Assembly: GCA_938075305.1 (NCBI GenBank)
Contig: CALJGV010000010.1
Span: 310,001-374,000, forward strand
DNA from: an uncultured bacterium
Lineage (GTDB): Bacteria > Planctomycetota > UBA1135 > GCA-002686595
Direction of reading: 5' to 3'
DNA: 64,000 nucleotides
Shown here: in pieces, positions 8,486-15,556 of the stretch
How the letters are laid out: every line of letters starts with the position of its first letter
How positions within the stretch are numbered: the first letter of the stretch is position 1
The notes under the pieces: generated by a model
The model's input: the letters and a program-made list of their open reading frames with translations, nothing else
Told to the model about the DNA's origin: nothing
Databases searched by the model: none
Position numbers and translations under genes: made by a program

Positions 8486-9880
8486 ATGAAGCTCTTGATC
8501 GATCGAAGCTCCCTCGGTGCCTTCGGAGCCCTGCTCTTGGCAGGCGTCGCCTTCCCCCAGGAGACTCAGCCCCTGATGGGGGAGCCCGTGCGCGGGCTGA
8601 CGCCCCAGCAGCTTGCGCTCTTCGAGGAAGGGCGCGCCGCGTTCACCGCGCCGGTCCTCCCGTCGGAGGGGGCGGGCCCCGTGTTCAACGAGCTCACCTG
8701 CGCGGGCTGCCACAACGTTCCTGCGATCGGAGGGTTCGGCGGACGGCGGGTGACGCGCTTCGGGATCGCTGCCACGAGCACCTCGCCCTTCCAGGCGCTC
8801 GAGGGGCTCGGCGGGACGCTGCTCCAGGACCAGTCCTTCACCATCGCGTGCCGCGAGACGGTGCCCGCCCAGGCGACGCACACCGCGCTCCGCGGGACGC
8901 CGATCCTCTTCGGTTCCGGCCTCATCGAGGCCATCACGGACGCCGCACTCGTGGATCGGGCCAACAACCAACCGTCCGGCCTGGTCGGCCGCGTGCACAC
9001 CACCGTCCCGCTCGAGACGCCCAACGGCGCCCGGCGGATCGGACGGTTCGGCTGGAAGGGCGGGATCGCGACCGTGGACACCTTCTCCATCGACGCCGCC
9101 CTGAACGAGATGGGGCTCACCAGCCAGTTCCTGCCCCAGGAGAACGCGCCGAACGGAGACCTCGCGCTGCTCGCCCAGTGCGACACCGTGGCGGACCCCG
9201 AGGACATGCCGGACGCCGCAGGCTTCACCCGCACGGACCGCTTCACTCACTTCCAGCGATACCTGGCCCCACCCGCGCAGACCCCGCGCAGCGGCATGGC
9301 GGGGGAGGCGATCTTCGAGGCGGTCGGGTGCGCTGAGTGCCACGTCGGGCGCTACGTCACGGGGCAGGTCGCAGAGGACGCGCTCTCGGGCAGAGAAATT
9401 CAGCCCTATGCGGACTTCCTCCTCCATGACCTCGGCGCGCTTGGCGACGGGATCGTCGAGGGAGAGGCCACGGAGACCGAGATGATGACCCGGCCCCTGT
9501 GGGGCCTCGCGCAGCGTCCGAGCTTCCTCCACGACGGCCGCGCCACCGGCGGGACCTTCGAGCAGAACGTGGCGGCTGCGGTCGCCGAGCACGGCGGCAC
9601 GGCGACGCCGTCGGCCCAGGCCTTCGCGGCGCTCTCCGCGGCGGAGAAGGACCTCGTCTACCGCTTCCTCGGCTCCCTCGGGCGGGCCGAGTTCGACTGG
9701 GACACCAACAACACCCTCGACGAGTTCGACTGGTTCTTCATCTACCCGCTGATGACGGGGCCGGAGCCGGCGACTCCGATCACGCCGGACGACGATGGCG
9801 CCATCGGCGACGTGGACCAGGATGGCGACTTCGACCTCGTGGAATTCGGGAAGCTTCAGCGCGCGTTCAGCGGACAGTGA
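8486..9880 (+). CDS. Di-haem oxidoreductase (DUF1111 type) with dockerin-like C-terminus
   Basis: This is a 464-residue exported c-type cytochrome. A signal peptide (about 1-24) is followed by two haem-attachment motifs, CAGCH (72-76) and CAECH (282-286). The C-terminal half has the family blocks YADFLLHDLG, RPLWGL and HDGRA that mark the DUF1111 di-haem oxidoreductases, relatives of MauG and bacterial cytochrome c peroxidase. After residue 400 two EF-hand-like loops appear: one from D404 (D-x-D-x-N-N) and a canonical one at 442-453 (D442, D444, D446, G447, D450, E453). This tandem layout resembles a dockerin or calcium-binding attachment domain. The stop is 11 bp before the next secreted-protein gene. 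The redox substrate is unknown. Confidence 0.88.
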   Translation: MKLLIDRSSLGAFGALLLAGVAFPQETQPLMGEPVRGLTPQQLALFEEGRAAFTAPVLPSEGAGPVFNELTCAGCHNVPAIGGFGGRRVTRFGIAATSTSPFQALEGLGGTLLQDQSFTIACRETVPAQATHTALRGTPILFGSGLIEAITDAALVDRANNQPSGLVGRVHTTVPLETPNGARRIGRFGWKGGIATVDTFSIDAALNEMGLTSQFLPQENAPNGDLALLAQCDTVADPEDMPDAAGFTRTDRFTHFQRYLAPPAQTPRSGMAGEAIFEAVGCAECHVGRYVTGQVAEDALSGREIQPYADFLLHDLGALGDGIVEGEATETEMMTRPLWGLAQRPSFLHDGRATGGTFEQNVAAAVAEHGGTATPSAQAFAALSAAEKDLVYRFLGSLGRAEFDWDTNNTLDEFDWFFIYPLMTGPEPATPITPDDDGAIGDVDQDGDFDLVEFGKLQRAFSGQ

Positions 9881-9891
9881 GGGACCAGGCC

Positions 9892-10908
9892 ATGTTCAAG
9901 CAAACCCCTATTCTCGTCGCGGCGGCAACGCTCGCCGCGCCCTCTGCAGCGCAGGTCACCCTCGACGTGGAGATCCTCTCCGGCGGCGCGCCGGTGGTCA
10001 GCGTGCTCCCGGGGCAGTCCGTCCCGTTCACGATCGAGGCCCAGCTCGGCGGGGAGCCCAGCCAGGGGCTCGCGATGTTCTCCATCGACCTCGACCATGA
10101 CGGGGGACCCCTGACCCAGGTGGCGCCCAGCGCGGCGGCGGCGCCCTTCGTGTCGCCCATGGGGGTCAACAACCCCGCTGGGTTCGGCGGAACGCTCCGG
10201 GCCGGTGACCTGCTTCAGGTGGGTGGCGCGATGAACACCATCAACAACCAGTTCGCTGCGGCGCCGCTCGGCAGCGTGGTCACAGGCCTCGCCTTGACCG
10301 CGACCGAGGAGCTCGCCACTGGGAGCCTGGTGGCGCCTTCCACCGCCGGGGTCTACACGCTGTCCGCGCGGAACCTCTTCGCCAACGCGCTGGACGCTCC
10401 GGCGCCCGCGGGTTTCTGGGAGGTCAAGGCAGTGGAGGCCGGCGCCATGAGCGCCCTGACGATCCTCGTGCTCGACTGCGGGGCGGAGACGTTCTGTGAG
10501 CCCAAGGTGGACTCCGCGGGTTGCGCGCCGACTCTCACCGCGTCGGGCGCTGCCTCCCTGGGAGGGAGCTCCAGCCTGACGCTCACCGCGTCGAACGTGC
10601 TGAACCGACAGTTCGGCCTGTTCGTCTACGGGACGGAGCTCGCCGACGACCCCGCCTTCGGCGGCACGCTCTGCGTGGGCGGCAACGTGGTGCGCCTGTT
10701 CGAGCCCACGAACTCTGGCGGGAGCGGCGCTCCGGGAACCACCTGCGGCGGCAGCTTCACCCGGGTGATCGACGGGCCCTTCCTCGCAGCCGCCGGCTTC
10801 GGCATCGGCGACGAGTTCTTCTGCCAGTGGCTGTACCGTGACCCGCTCGCCCCCGACGGCAGCGGGGCGGGCATCACCAACGCCGCGGCCTTCCTCGTCT
10901 GCCCCTGA
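9892..10908 (+). CDS. Secreted protein with planctomycete-type C-terminal module
   Basis: This is a 338-residue exported protein of unknown function. The ATG at 9892, 11 bp after the cytochrome gene, opens a signal peptide ending near residue 20 (SAAQ). Residues 21-190 are beta-rich and resemble cohesin/adhesin-like or extracellular sandwich domains (for example PGQSVPFTIEAQLGG and a DLDHDGG loop). From residue 201 it carries a cysteine-containing module (FCEPKVDSAGCAP, GGTLCVGG, FFCQWLYRDP, ending VCP). The same architecture recurs at the C-termini of the proteins encoded at 13775-15556 and 25119-26876. The pairing with the dockerin-bearing cytochrome suggests a common place at the cell surface; that is inference. 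Confidence 0.78.
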   Translation: MFKQTPILVAAATLAAPSAAQVTLDVEILSGGAPVVSVLPGQSVPFTIEAQLGGEPSQGLAMFSIDLDHDGGPLTQVAPSAAAAPFVSPMGVNNPAGFGGTLRAGDLLQVGGAMNTINNQFAAAPLGSVVTGLALTATEELATGSLVAPSTAGVYTLSARNLFANALDAPAPAGFWEVKAVEAGAMSALTILVLDCGAETFCEPKVDSAGCAPTLTASGAASLGGSSSLTLTASNVLNRQFGLFVYGTELADDPAFGGTLCVGGNVVRLFEPTNSGGSGAPGTTCGGSFTRVIDGPFLAAAGFGIGDEFFCQWLYRDPLAPDGSGAGITNAAAFLVCP

Positions 10909-10943
10909 GATCCGCGCTCCGGGTCCCGGGCCATGGCTTCTGG

Positions 10944-13730
10944 ATGATCGCACGGCTGATCCTGGCGCTGGCTGCGTGCACGGCCGCAGCCGCGGCGCCC
11001 CAGGCGCCGCCCCCTGACCTGCCCGAGGAGGTCGAGGCCTTCGTCGAGGCGCGGGCGGATTGGCTCGGGTCCTTCAAGGCGTGGGCGGAAGGGCGCGGGG
11101 AGCCCCCTTTCGGCGAGGGGGCCGGGTTTCGGGTCCCGGCCGGCGAGCCCTCCTCGAGGGAGGGCGGCCCGGTCCGACTGGTCCGCAGCGCGGGGTCAGG
11201 CGCGGCGTTCCGCGGCACGGACATCCCCGGTCTGCGCGACGCGCTCCTTGGCGGGCAGGGGGTGCGTGGTCTGGCTCAGGTCAAGGTCAAGGTGGTGGCC
11301 GCCGCCCCGGTGCCGGGGGGCTTCGAGCTCCAGCTGCGGGTGGAGGCCGGGTCCTCCCCCCAGGCCCCCGTCTGGCAGGCCGTCTCAAGGGTGTCTCTGA
11401 CCCTCGTGCGAGGGGCCGGCGGGGAGCCCGCGGGGGCTGAGGAGGAGTGGGTCTGCGCCAGCGCCAGCGTCACCGCATGGGAGTGGGCGTCGAGGGCCGA
11501 GGAGCTCTTCACGGAGCGGACCCTGGGGGTCATCGGGCCCGACGAGCGCGCGGCGCGGTTGCTCGGCGTCGGGATGGACCGCTGGGCACAGCGCCTCGAC
11601 GACCCCTCCCTCTCCGCGTGGTTCGGTCACCAGGGGATCGCCGCGGGTGACGTGAACGGGGACGGCCGGCCGGATCTGCTGGTGGCCATGCCCAGCGGGC
11701 TCCCGAACATGCTGCTCGTCCAGCAGCCGGACGGTACCGTCCGCGACGTCGCTCGAGAGGTCGGGCTCGCCTGGCTCGACGACACCAAAGGCGTCCTCCT
11801 CATCGACATGGACGGCGACGGCCGACAGGACGCCGTGTCAGCGCTCGGGCACGTCATCGTCGTCCAGCGACAGGACGAGCGCGGCCGGTTCCAGGTGGCC
11901 GGGTGGGGCGTGTCGCCGGACGAGGCGCCGGTCTACGGGGTGAGCGCCGCGGACGTGGATGGGGATGGAGACCTCGACCTGTTCGGCGCCCGCTACGTGT
12001 CGACCCGATACGCCGACACGCTCCCCGTGCCCCTCGAGGACGCCCGGAACGGGCCGTCCAACGTGCTCTTCCGCAATGACCGCGGTCGCTTCGTGGACGT
12101 GACGGAGGCGGCGGGGCTCCGGGCCGGAGGCGGACGGTTCAGCCTGCAGGGATCCTTCAGTGACTTCGACCTCGACGGGGACCCCGACCTCTACGTCGTG
12201 AACGACTTCGGTCGTAATCAGCTCTTCGTCAATGACGGCGGACGGTTCGCGGACGAGGCGGCGTCCTTTGGGGTGGAGGACCAGGGGGCGGGCATGGGTG
12301 CTTCGTGGTCGGACTTCGACCGGGACGGGGACCTGGATCTCTACGTCACCAACATGTACTCGTCCGCCGGTCGGCGGGTGGCCTTCCAGGACGGGTTCGC
12401 GCCGGAGCGCACGGAGGAAGAGCGCGCGGAGATCCGGCGCCTTAGCCTCGGGAACAGCCTGCTGGTACGAGAAGGGACGCGCTTCATCGATCGGTCCGAG
12501 GGGGCAGGCGTGAGGATGGGGCGCTGGGCGTGGGGCGCCGTCTTCGCGGACCTTGACGCGGACGGGTTCGACGACCTCATCAGCCCATCCGGGTTCCTCA
12601 CGGGTCCGAAGCCAGGAGACCTCTGAAGCTCGTTCTGGCGGCGCGTGGCGCCGCAACGGAGCGTCGGCGCGAGCGCAGGAGGATACGCGGCGGCGTGGGG
12701 GGAGATCGCTCGCTCCATGGAGTCCGGCGTGTCCTGGAGTGGCCACGAGCGGAACGTGGCCTGGCTCCAGGCCGGGGCCGGTCGGTTCGTGGATGTCTCG
12801 GCGATCACGGGTCTGGATCAGGTCGAGGACGGCCGCGTCGCCCTCCGCTGCGATTGGGACGGCGACGGTGACCTCGACCTATGGCTTCGATTCCGGAGCG
12901 GCTCGACCCTGCGGTACATGGAGAACCGTGCTGACCCCGATCGGCACGTGGCGTTCGAGCCTGGCCGTCCGGGGGCATCGGTGATGGTGGAGACCTCCTT
13001 CGGCGAGGAGTCGACGAGCACGCTCCTCCAGACCCGCACGTCGGATGGCTACCTGGCTGGCGTGCGGCCGCGAGCCGTGCTGGCCCTGCGGCCGGGGGAG
13101 GAGGTGCTCGGGGCGGAGGGCCTCGCGGAGCGCCGCCTCCAGGTCGTGGCGCGACCGGCGGAGAGGAAGGCCCCGGAGGCGGGCAGCCTCCCGGCCCACG
13201 AGCTGCCCGGGCGCGTTGTACTTCGCACGGCGCTCCCACTCCCCCCCGGGCGCCTGCGCGAGCTCGGCTTCCGGCCCGGTCGCCCCCAACTCGTGGTCGT
13301 GGCGGACCCGGAGTGCGAGGTGTGCGCCGGGGTCCTGCCCTCCGCGATCGATGCCATCGTGGAGGATGGCCGGATCGCCCTGACTCGCCTGAACACGCGG
13401 AACAAGGCGGACGGGCCGGCCGTCCGATGGGCATCGACGACCGCAGCTCACATCCTTGGCCCTGGGGCAGAACTGGACACCCCGCTCTCGCTCCTGATCG
13501 GCCCTGGGGGCCGACTGCAAACCATCCTCGTGGGTGCTCTGGAGTGGGACGGAATGTCACAGGACCTGGAGTGGTTCGCACTGGAGCCGGTCCAGGGCGC
13601 CCTGCGCGCCAGCTTCGACCCGCCCGGTGCCTCACGGTGGTTCCACGGCATGGCGCGTTCCAGCGCGCCCCTTGCGCAAGAACTACTTGAGGCAGGCTTC
13701 GATTCCGAAGCAGCCTTCTATTCTAAGTAG
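10944..13730 (+). CDS. FG-GAP/VCBS (CRTAC1-like) protein with thioredoxin-like C-terminus; in-frame TGA at codon 561
   Basis: This is read as one 928-codon exported protein interrupted by a TGA at 12624-12626. A signal peptide (about 1-18) precedes an N-terminal domain, then at least six FG-GAP/calcium loops of the type DVDGDGDLDLF typical of beta-propeller CRTAC1-like proteins. The TGA falls after TGPKPGDL and is followed in the same frame by SSFWRRV and, with no stop for 1104 bases, another FG-GAP loop (CDWDGDGDLDLW, about 636-647). A thioredoxin-like end has a CEVC pair (791-794) and an LIGPGGRLQ strand. The downstream part has no signal peptide and no convincing start of its own (only a GTG at 12645 without a ribosome site). 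A hairpin right after the TGA fits a bacterial SECIS. Alternatives are a true nonsense mutation or a sequencing error. Confidence 0.72.
12638..12654 (+). promoter_or_regulatory. SECIS-like hairpin directly downstream of the in-frame TGA
   Basis: A perfect 7-bp stem, GCGGCGC (12638-12644) with GCGCCGC (12648-12654), closes a 3-base GTG loop. Eighteen bases separate the TGA (12624-12626) from the loop, and the first loop base is G. Published bacterial SECIS models ask for a short stem-loop just after the UGA, with a G among the first two loop bases and a loop about 16-37 bases away, so this fits. GC-rich hairpins are common in such a genome, so the match alone is not proof. Confidence 0.45.
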
Positions 13731-13748
13731 GGCAGTTCTTCGACTGCC
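13731..13748 (+). terminator. Possible weak terminator hairpin
   Basis: GGCAGT and ACTGCC form a 6-bp stem with a TCTTCG loop immediately after the stop codon of the FG-GAP gene. A pyrimidine-rich stretch follows, but there is no T-run, so intrinsic termination here is uncertain. Confidence 0.3.
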
Positions 13749-13774
13749 GCTGGCTTCCTCCCATCCCCGATTAC

Positions 13775-15556
13775 ATGAAGCTCGACTCCATCTCCTTCGT
13801 CGCGGTCCTCGCACCCGCGCTCGCCACCGCCTCCAGCGCCCAGTCGGTCGACTGGGCCGAGTTCGTTCGCGAAGACTCGCGGATCAGCGCTCCCAGCTCG
13901 CTCGTCCTCCAGGACACCCAGGAGAAGGACATGGCCTGGGGCGACTTTGATCGGGACGGTTGGATCGACCTGATCGTGGTGCGAAAGCAACCCTTCACGA
14001 CCCAGGGGCGCCACCGCAACGCGCTGCTGATGAACGAGGGCGGGACGCTCACCTCGCGCGCGAGCCAATACGCCGCAGCGTCCACGGTCGCGGGGGACCA
14101 GGGCTTCCTTACTCCGACCAACGACCGCGACGTGGCCGTGGGGGACCTCGACGGCGACGGGTGGCTGGACTTCGTCACCGCCACGACGTTCTCGCCGGGG
14201 CAGCCCAAGCACATCTCGCACCCCCGCGTGTACATGAACCTCGGCGAGGTCAACGGGCAGTGGCAGGGCTTCATCTATGACGAGGCCCGGATCCCCGACT
14301 GGGGGACCTACCCCAACATGTGCGGGGTCGCGATTGGCGACCTGACCGGAGACGGCTTCCCGGAGATCTACTTCAGCCACTACGAGCAGCAAGCCCAGGT
14401 CGACCTCAACGACCGGCTGCTGATCAACGACGGGAGCGGCTTCTTCAGCGATGAGAGCTCGGCTCGCATGACGAGCGCCATGCGAGGCTCGTCCTTCGGG
14501 ACCTCGGCGGTCATCGATGACATGAACCTCGACGGAGTCAACGACGTGATCAGCGTCTCCGGCTCCGGCGCCACGGGCGGGTTGACCCGGTCCTCGGTGG
14601 CGTACAACAATCCGAACAACGAGGGGTTCTTCAACATCCTCCAGGAGCCCTACAGCGGCGCGCCGTATCACGTGGCGACGGGGGACCTGAACCAGGATGG
14701 TCGGCCTGACCTCATCCTCAGCGATGACGCCGACGATCGGTACCTGCTCAACATGGGCAACGACCCCTTCGGTCGCGTCTCCTGGGGGCCGGCGAACACC
14801 TTCGCGACGGACGATGGCTTCGGCAGCAACAACCTGATCGTCGACCTCAACGGGGATGAGTTCCCCGAGGCGATCATCTGTGACGTGGACGTCGACATCT
14901 CCGGGTGCAACCGTCGCCTGCACATCTACCACAACCGCGGTGGTACCGTCGGCGGCATGGTGACCCTGCGGGAGGAGCGCTCGGGGAGCACCTACGGCGC
15001 GGCGGGCCTGCCCGAACTCGAGGGCGTCCACGACGTGGCGCCCATCGACATCGACAACGATGGCGACCTCGACCTCGTCATCGGCCGCTGCGATGGGACC
15101 CGGGTCTACATGAACCAGCGCAACAAGCTGGGTTCGGACTTCTGCCAGGACGCCAACACGAACTCCACCGGGTTGCCGGCTGACATCAGTGCGATCGGGA
15201 GCCCTGTCCTCGAGGACAACAACGTGACGCTGATCTGCGAGGACCTGCCGGCCAATACGTTCGGCTTCTTCCTCGCGAGCCGGACGCGTGGCTTCCTCCC
15301 GAACCCAGGCGGGAGCCTGGGCAACCTCTGCATCCTCGGCGACATCGGGCGCTACGTTGGGCCCGGCCAGATCCTGAACGCCGGGACCGCCGGGACGATC
15401 CAACTGGCCATCGACGTGGACGACATCCCGCAGCCCACCGGTGGCGTCGGGATGATGGCGGGGGAGAAGTTCCACTTCCAGACCTGGTTCCGTGACAACC
15501 TCCTGGGCGTCACCACCAGCAACTTCTCGGACGCGGTCTCGATCGAGCTTCGCTGA
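13775..15556 (+). CDS. Secreted FG-GAP/VCBS-repeat protein with shared C-terminal module
   Basis: This is a 593-residue exported protein. A signal peptide (about 1-23, ending SSAQ) is followed by repeated FG-GAP/VCBS units with aspartate-rich calcium loops (DFDRDGWIDLIVV, DLDGDGWLDFV, DLTGDGFPEIYF, DLNQDGRPDLILS, DIDNDGDLDLVIG), which predict a beta-propeller of about 400 residues. Residues about 454-593 form the recurrent C-terminal module (SDFCQDANTNSTG, NPGGSLGNLC, FQTWFRD, TSNFSDAV), best matched in this window by the protein at 25119-26876. FG-GAP propellers usually bind ligands or partners at the surface. It starts 44 bp after the TGA-containing FG-GAP gene and ends just before a strong hairpin. 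Confidence 0.85.
   Translation: MKLDSISFVAVLAPALATASSAQSVDWAEFVREDSRISAPSSLVLQDTQEKDMAWGDFDRDGWIDLIVVRKQPFTTQGRHRNALLMNEGGTLTSRASQYAAASTVAGDQGFLTPTNDRDVAVGDLDGDGWLDFVTATTFSPGQPKHISHPRVYMNLGEVNGQWQGFIYDEARIPDWGTYPNMCGVAIGDLTGDGFPEIYFSHYEQQAQVDLNDRLLINDGSGFFSDESSARMTSAMRGSSFGTSAVIDDMNLDGVNDVISVSGSGATGGLTRSSVAYNNPNNEGFFNILQEPYSGAPYHVATGDLNQDGRPDLILSDDADDRYLLNMGNDPFGRVSWGPANTFATDDGFGSNNLIVDLNGDEFPEAIICDVDVDISGCNRRLHIYHNRGGTVGGMVTLREERSGSTYGAAGLPELEGVHDVAPIDIDNDGDLDLVIGRCDGTRVYMNQRNKLGSDFCQDANTNSTGLPADISAIGSPVLEDNNVTLICEDLPANTFGFFLASRTRGFLPNPGGSLGNLCILGDIGRYVGPGQILNAGTAGTIQLAIDVDDIPQPTGGVGMMAGEKFHFQTWFRDNLLGVTTSNFSDAVSIELR

Follow-up and report, generated by a model that had tools for sequence, protein, structure and literature searches.

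The nearest described counterparts of the protein discussed here are the CRTAC1/ASPIC-UnbV FG-GAP proteins (PF13517, PF07593; PDB 9etn), which have the layout of propeller plus UnbV_ASPIC domain seen in most of its family and give its best structural and profile match, and the TlpA/ResA/DsbE-type oxidoreductases, whose TlpA (1jfu) and ResA (1st9) profiles match its C-terminal domain, CxxC included. Unlike in the latter, the domain is here fused behind a propeller and selenocysteine (Sec) would lie outside the CxxC; in the catalogued Sec-TlpA proteins, Sec is found within the motif itself, UGC (PMC13188914). Text searches of the literature returned no report of a selenoprotein within the CRTAC1/ASPIC-UnbV FG-GAP family, no FG-GAP, VCBS, CRTAC1 or UnbV entry occurs among the 87 selenoprotein families of 2022 (PMC9312934) or the 119 of 2026 (PMC13188914), and NCBIfam has no model for a Sec-containing FG-GAP family. 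A 2016 paper gives planctomycete selenoprotein candidates in its supplement (Table S9 of PMC4807772); with those candidates outside the comparison, what we describe appears to be a large selenoprotein family of Planctomycetota and Verrucomicrobiota that is not found in published catalogues. As a rule, Cys is what replaces Sec in known selenoprotein families, and it was noted in 2025 that all of them now seem to have Cys homologues; to be kept by the deep-Sep method presented there, a candidate must count among its top hits a Sec homologue already known or no fewer than two Cys homologues (PMC12013277). Cys replacement is rare in the FG-GAP family, which breaks this rule of current selenoprotein finders and may have been overlooked because its Cys homologues are nearly absent and deep-Sep discards such candidates. 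More selenoprotein families without Cys homologues may have been missed in the same way.

The window (the whole stretch of 64,000 nucleotides analysed, from an uncultured planctomycete) contains on its forward strand, at 10944..13730, a gene that is almost certainly intact and encodes a selenium-containing, putatively exported protein, judging from its sequence, the family comparison and a structure model. The first-pass annotation had described one frame of 928 residues broken by TGA alone, and translation bears this out: the TGA at 12624..12626 (codon 561) is the single internal stop, and the frame ends at a TAG. The predicted Sec561 lies in the motif DL-U-SSFWRRV. We agree, reading by eye, that the N-terminus (MIARLILALAACTAAAAAPQ, 10944..11003) resembles a signal peptide. 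The frame is unchanged 3' of the UGA, and the earlier view that this half lacks a convincing start holds, the first candidate being a GTG at 12645. Wherever it is found, such a gene is liable to be mis-annotated as truncated.

An FG-GAP beta-propeller region occupies approximately 11616..12880 (Pfam FG-GAP and FG-GAP_3, AlphaFold, Foldseek), and the Sec-bearing segment forms an insertion ahead of its last blade. It is followed, at roughly 12950..13130, by a region that aligns with the UnbV_ASPIC domain of relatives and for which the alignment profile matches CRTAC1; the window protein itself gives no PF07593 match in Pfam. The C-terminal TlpA/ResA-like thioredoxin domain (13212..13583, from profile and model) is in this member too divergent for Pfam, and is thioredoxin-like by its secondary structure in the model; the CEVC that had been pointed out near the C-terminus falls within this fold, at 13314..13325 (Cys791 and Cys794). 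Among 34 aligned members, FG-GAP repeats (PF13517, PF01839) are present in all 34, UnbV_ASPIC (PF07593) in 27, AhpC-TSA in 22, Redoxin in 18 and TPRs in 14, and the profile of the family alignment matches CRTAC1 (9etn) and, at its C-terminus, TlpA and ResA. The AlphaFold model of the window protein (pLDDT 89, pTM 0.91) places Sec, residue 542 of the model, at the start of helix 541–549, and has CEVC (model residues 772–775) opening a thioredoxin-type helix; its top Foldseek match is CRTAC1 9etn (E 2.9e-21), matches to DDB1-type propellers being discounted as generic. We describe the product as a putatively exported protein made up of an FG-GAP propeller like that of CRTAC1, a region of UnbV/ASPIC type and a thioredoxin domain resembling those of TlpA and ResA. 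The ordinary FG-GAP relatives of the home genome (L006, L010 and L011) differ in having neither the Sec-bearing segment nor the thioredoxin domain.

The explanation that we consider very probable as a whole is that of an intact selenoprotein gene, with Sec inserted by the cell's own machinery and coupled to the CxxC in a relay. The UGA at codon 561 would be decoded as Sec by the SelA, SelB, tRNA-Sec and SelD of the cell, under the direction of a hairpin just 3' of it. Sec, which in the model begins a short helix inserted ahead of the final propeller blade, would be the reactive nucleophile; its substrate would lie outside the cytoplasm and might be a peroxide, a disulfide or a metal, and the CxxC of the thioredoxin domain would then reduce the oxidised Sec. 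These parts are not equally firm: insertion of Sec at codon 561 is, from the sequence comparisons below, close to certain, the Sec-CxxC relay is somewhat favoured, and any particular substrate is named with low confidence.

Homologues were sought in one genome per GTDB species with a query of 147 residues around the site in which the UGA was read as Cys; since the query pattern required a Cys codon at this point, any bias of the search would be against TGA. An alignment of homologues at codon 561 had been proposed as a check, and in the 33 homologous loci recovered (many from Planctomycetota and some from Verrucomicrobiota) the aligned codon is TGA in 31, TGC in one (L025) and GAG in one (L044, from an Acidobacteriota assembly). 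When 392 Planctomycetota genomes were searched with a profile, 231 gave a match; of the best 150 matches, 125 have an in-frame TGA and 25 none, and those with TGA come from 67 genomes that represent about 20 families. The gene appears common in Planctomycetota, with several copies in some genomes; the home genome has two further paralogues with TGA (L002, L004) and two without (L003, L005). Loci sampled from distant subfamilies have TGA at the same site in varied surroundings (DTU-STYWRHVV, DTU-SEFWCQVV, DLU-PPFWKSVV, DLU-VPFWADVV). Cys stands at the site in one (L025) of 97 sampled rows, the other replacements being Glu, Gln, Ala, Asp, Asn and His. A search of plasmids gave ordinary CRTAC1/FG-GAP matches only.

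We then asked how the site relates to the thioredoxin active site, counting CxxC at the active-site position in proteins with a complete C-terminus. It is present in 52 of 58 Sec members and in none of 18 distinct members with Glu, Gln, Ala, Asp, Asn or His (19 rows, counting two H rows of L168), and the lone Cys member retains it. One non-Sec member, L161, has a CLLC away from the active-site position; with this counted as present, the association of Sec with CxxC has a Fisher p of 1e-10. When five independent pairs were drawn on the tree, CxxC was lost with Sec in four to five of the five, depending on random pairing, and the reverse was never seen (p 0.06–0.125, five pairs being too few for significance). 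The first-pass annotation had held that unrelated non-Cys residues at the site would speak against Sec. Such residues do occur, the non-UGA paralogues having mostly Glu, Gln or Ala, but the SECIS stem and the thioredoxin CxxC have been lost from these paralogues as well, and for that reason they look like relatives in which the redox function itself has gone. The paralogues concerned (L003, L005, L044 and L090–L108) lack both hairpin and CxxC, and several share a genome with Sec copies.

The alternative that survives best accepts the selenoprotein and differs on what Sec does: within the propeller it would bind a metal or have a structural part, and would not be a catalyst recycled by the thioredoxin domain. 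FG-GAP propellers bind calcium, Glu, Asp, Gln, Asn and His at the site could all be ligands, and six of the 58 Sec proteins lack CxxC (three of them with short C-termini), including the own-genome paralogue L002 (wider locus L145) and its orthologue; the relay is for this reason not universal. Against this stand the strong co-occurrence of Sec with CxxC, the retention of CxxC in the sole Cys variant, and the modelled placement at a helix N-terminus, which would be typical of reactive selenols. We regard a ligand or structural role as unlikely, if still to be reckoned with, and prefer the reactive Sec recycled by the CxxC. Three of the Sec members, L145 (G000:C5), L147 and L149, keep a thioredoxin-like domain without its CxxC and so form an exception to the coupling.

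The perfect 7-bp stem with a GTG loop that had been noticed 3' of the UGA is confirmed at 12638..12654, where 12638–12644 pairs with 12648–12654 around a GUG apical loop (12645–12647), 18 nt after the UGA. The bacterial SECIS model asks for an apical loop of 3–9 nt, a spacing of 16–37 nt and a G in the first two loop positions (PMC13188914), and, as in the catalogued prokaryotic selenoprotein families, the stem-loop downstream of the UGA fits it. In nearly all of 82 loci the loop, mostly GGUCG or GUG, starts 17–18 nt past the UGA with G followed by G or U, and 81 of the 82 have a stem-loop of −7.5 kcal/mol or lower. The folding energy of the window hairpin taken as a single sequence is not unusual (z −1.16), as expected in GC-rich DNA, and was dropped as proof; because it was not significant, covariation and codon bias were used instead. 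RNAalifold, given 56 sequences, proposed the same six pairs unaided (−9.97 kcal/mol). In the covariation set (82 sequences, 73 distinct), columns 18–28 are occupied by GU, AU, CG, GC and UA, columns 20–26 by AU and GC, and columns 16–30 by CG and UA; none of 500 shuffles attained the covariation score, which is also lower when the register is slid. At columns 20–26, amino-acid coupling (Gln/His-Val versus Arg-Ala) could also produce the A-U/G-C covariation, but in most non-Sec relatives the stem is broken, and columns 18–28 vary independently. The codons of the stem are synonymously frozen: TCG is used for Ser at codon 9 in 49 of 50 cases (27% elsewhere), and GTG for Val at codon 8 in 48 of 49 (42% elsewhere). 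The full set of six pairs occurs in 72 of 77 Sec genes; of the 19 non-Sec genes only one, the Cys gene, has it.

Insertion of Sec requires selA, selB, selC and selD in the host, and all four are present in the home genome (profile scores of 460 bits for selA, 327 for selB and 318 for selD; tRNA-Sec 70.5 bits, anticodon UCA). With this machinery, a UGA kept in homologues and a covarying SECIS downstream, the selenocysteine reading offered by the first-pass annotation is upheld. Across genomes, selA was found in 65 of the 67 with UGA copies and in 181 of the 325 remaining ones (Fisher p 9e-13, with no correction for kinship). The planctomycete Poly30 (CP036434.1), which carries the gene, was likewise found to have selA. 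The home-genome selD (L057, G000:C36:107-1051) appears to be a selenoprotein too, with an in-frame UGA at the classical site (AACAGUAAKMP). In two genomes (G150 and G173) UGA copies were seen, yet selA and tRNA-Sec were not found; these assemblies are only 77–84% complete.

A second alternative would have the UGA passed without selenium, either through read-through by a near-cognate tRNA or through an altered code, giving Trp, Cys or a mixture at the site, or else a regulated pair of short and long products. Programmed read-through exists, and a certain amount of truncated product will probably be made, given that termination competes with the insertion of Sec. A change of the genetic code is ruled out, UGA being an ordinary stop nearby (seven of eight neighbouring genes checked end in it), and read-through of any kind would leave unaccounted for a hairpin that has the geometry and loop of a bacterial SECIS and is gone where the codon is not UGA, and the way in which UGA genes track selA. 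We consider selenium-free decoding very improbable next to decoding as Sec.

Comparison of the window gene with six relatives gave dN/dS of 0.23–0.36 after the UGA and 0.14–0.35 before it, which indicates that both halves of the frame are protein-coding and under purifying selection. The weakest alternative, which was also the main one named at the outset, has translation stop at the UGA and the downstream half dead or self-started, the gene being a pseudogene, two genes or the product of a sequencing error; it can point to the strong stop context of a UGA followed by A and to the GTG at 12645, but that GTG is part of the loop of the conserved hairpin, purifying selection acts on the downstream half, relatives in which the site is a sense codon read straight on through it, and the same codon is UGA in independent assemblies, a complete chromosome (L017) among them, and in more than 100 matches (82 of them directly checked for the UGA position) from about 20 families of Planctomycetota and from Verrucomicrobiota, so that frameshift, pseudogene and sequencing error are ruled out by conservation and the chance left to this reading is negligible. 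In 75 of 77 Sec genes the codon after the UGA (12627–12629 in the window) encodes Ser as either AGC or AGT, and for this reason the UGA is nearly always followed by A, the strong termination context.

On the family tree, Sec members are scattered across the main branches, and six changes are needed to account for the label. Sec is probably ancestral and was lost several times, a direction that we infer, as the midpoint root serves for drawing only. The joint loss of Sec, SECIS and CxxC on several occasions amounts to a natural experiment, and in this family selenium would serve in a fold associated more often with adhesion and the binding of calcium. A broader proposal is that these proteins form a class of beta-propeller selenoenzymes in which Sec is ancestral and hardly ever replaced by Cys, in which propeller Sec and fused thioredoxin CxxC make up one exported redox relay, with a di-haem cytochrome as partner in one branch, and in which the loss of either half leaves a non-redox relative; we would put the chances of this at about even.

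The branch to which the window belongs is also marked by its gene neighbourhood, all of it on the forward strand. Upstream lie a DHOR di-haem oxidoreductase with two CxxCH motifs (8486..9880; PF06537, E 2e-31) and a putative exported protein of about 338 residues with no Pfam match (9892..10908), and downstream a 593-residue FG-GAP protein (13775..15556), all three conserved neighbours. At 15 loci the Sec gene is flanked by homologues of all or most of these three, in rearranged order in some and with the locus incomplete at its ends in some cases; in more distant branches the neighbour genes are absent from the stretches read. The cassette (8486–15556) thus recurs in distant genomes with its order reshuffled. 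A joint extracytoplasmic redox function may be supposed for it, in which the Sec protein would probably work beside DHOR and the two other putative exported proteins; a literature search on the function of DHOR gave nothing useful. One further locus (L114/L172, G020:C78:24848-25354) contains three TGAs in frame, of which two come soon after the Sec site (DALU-AEAU-GHL), which may represent additional Sec residues, a longer insertion or an error.
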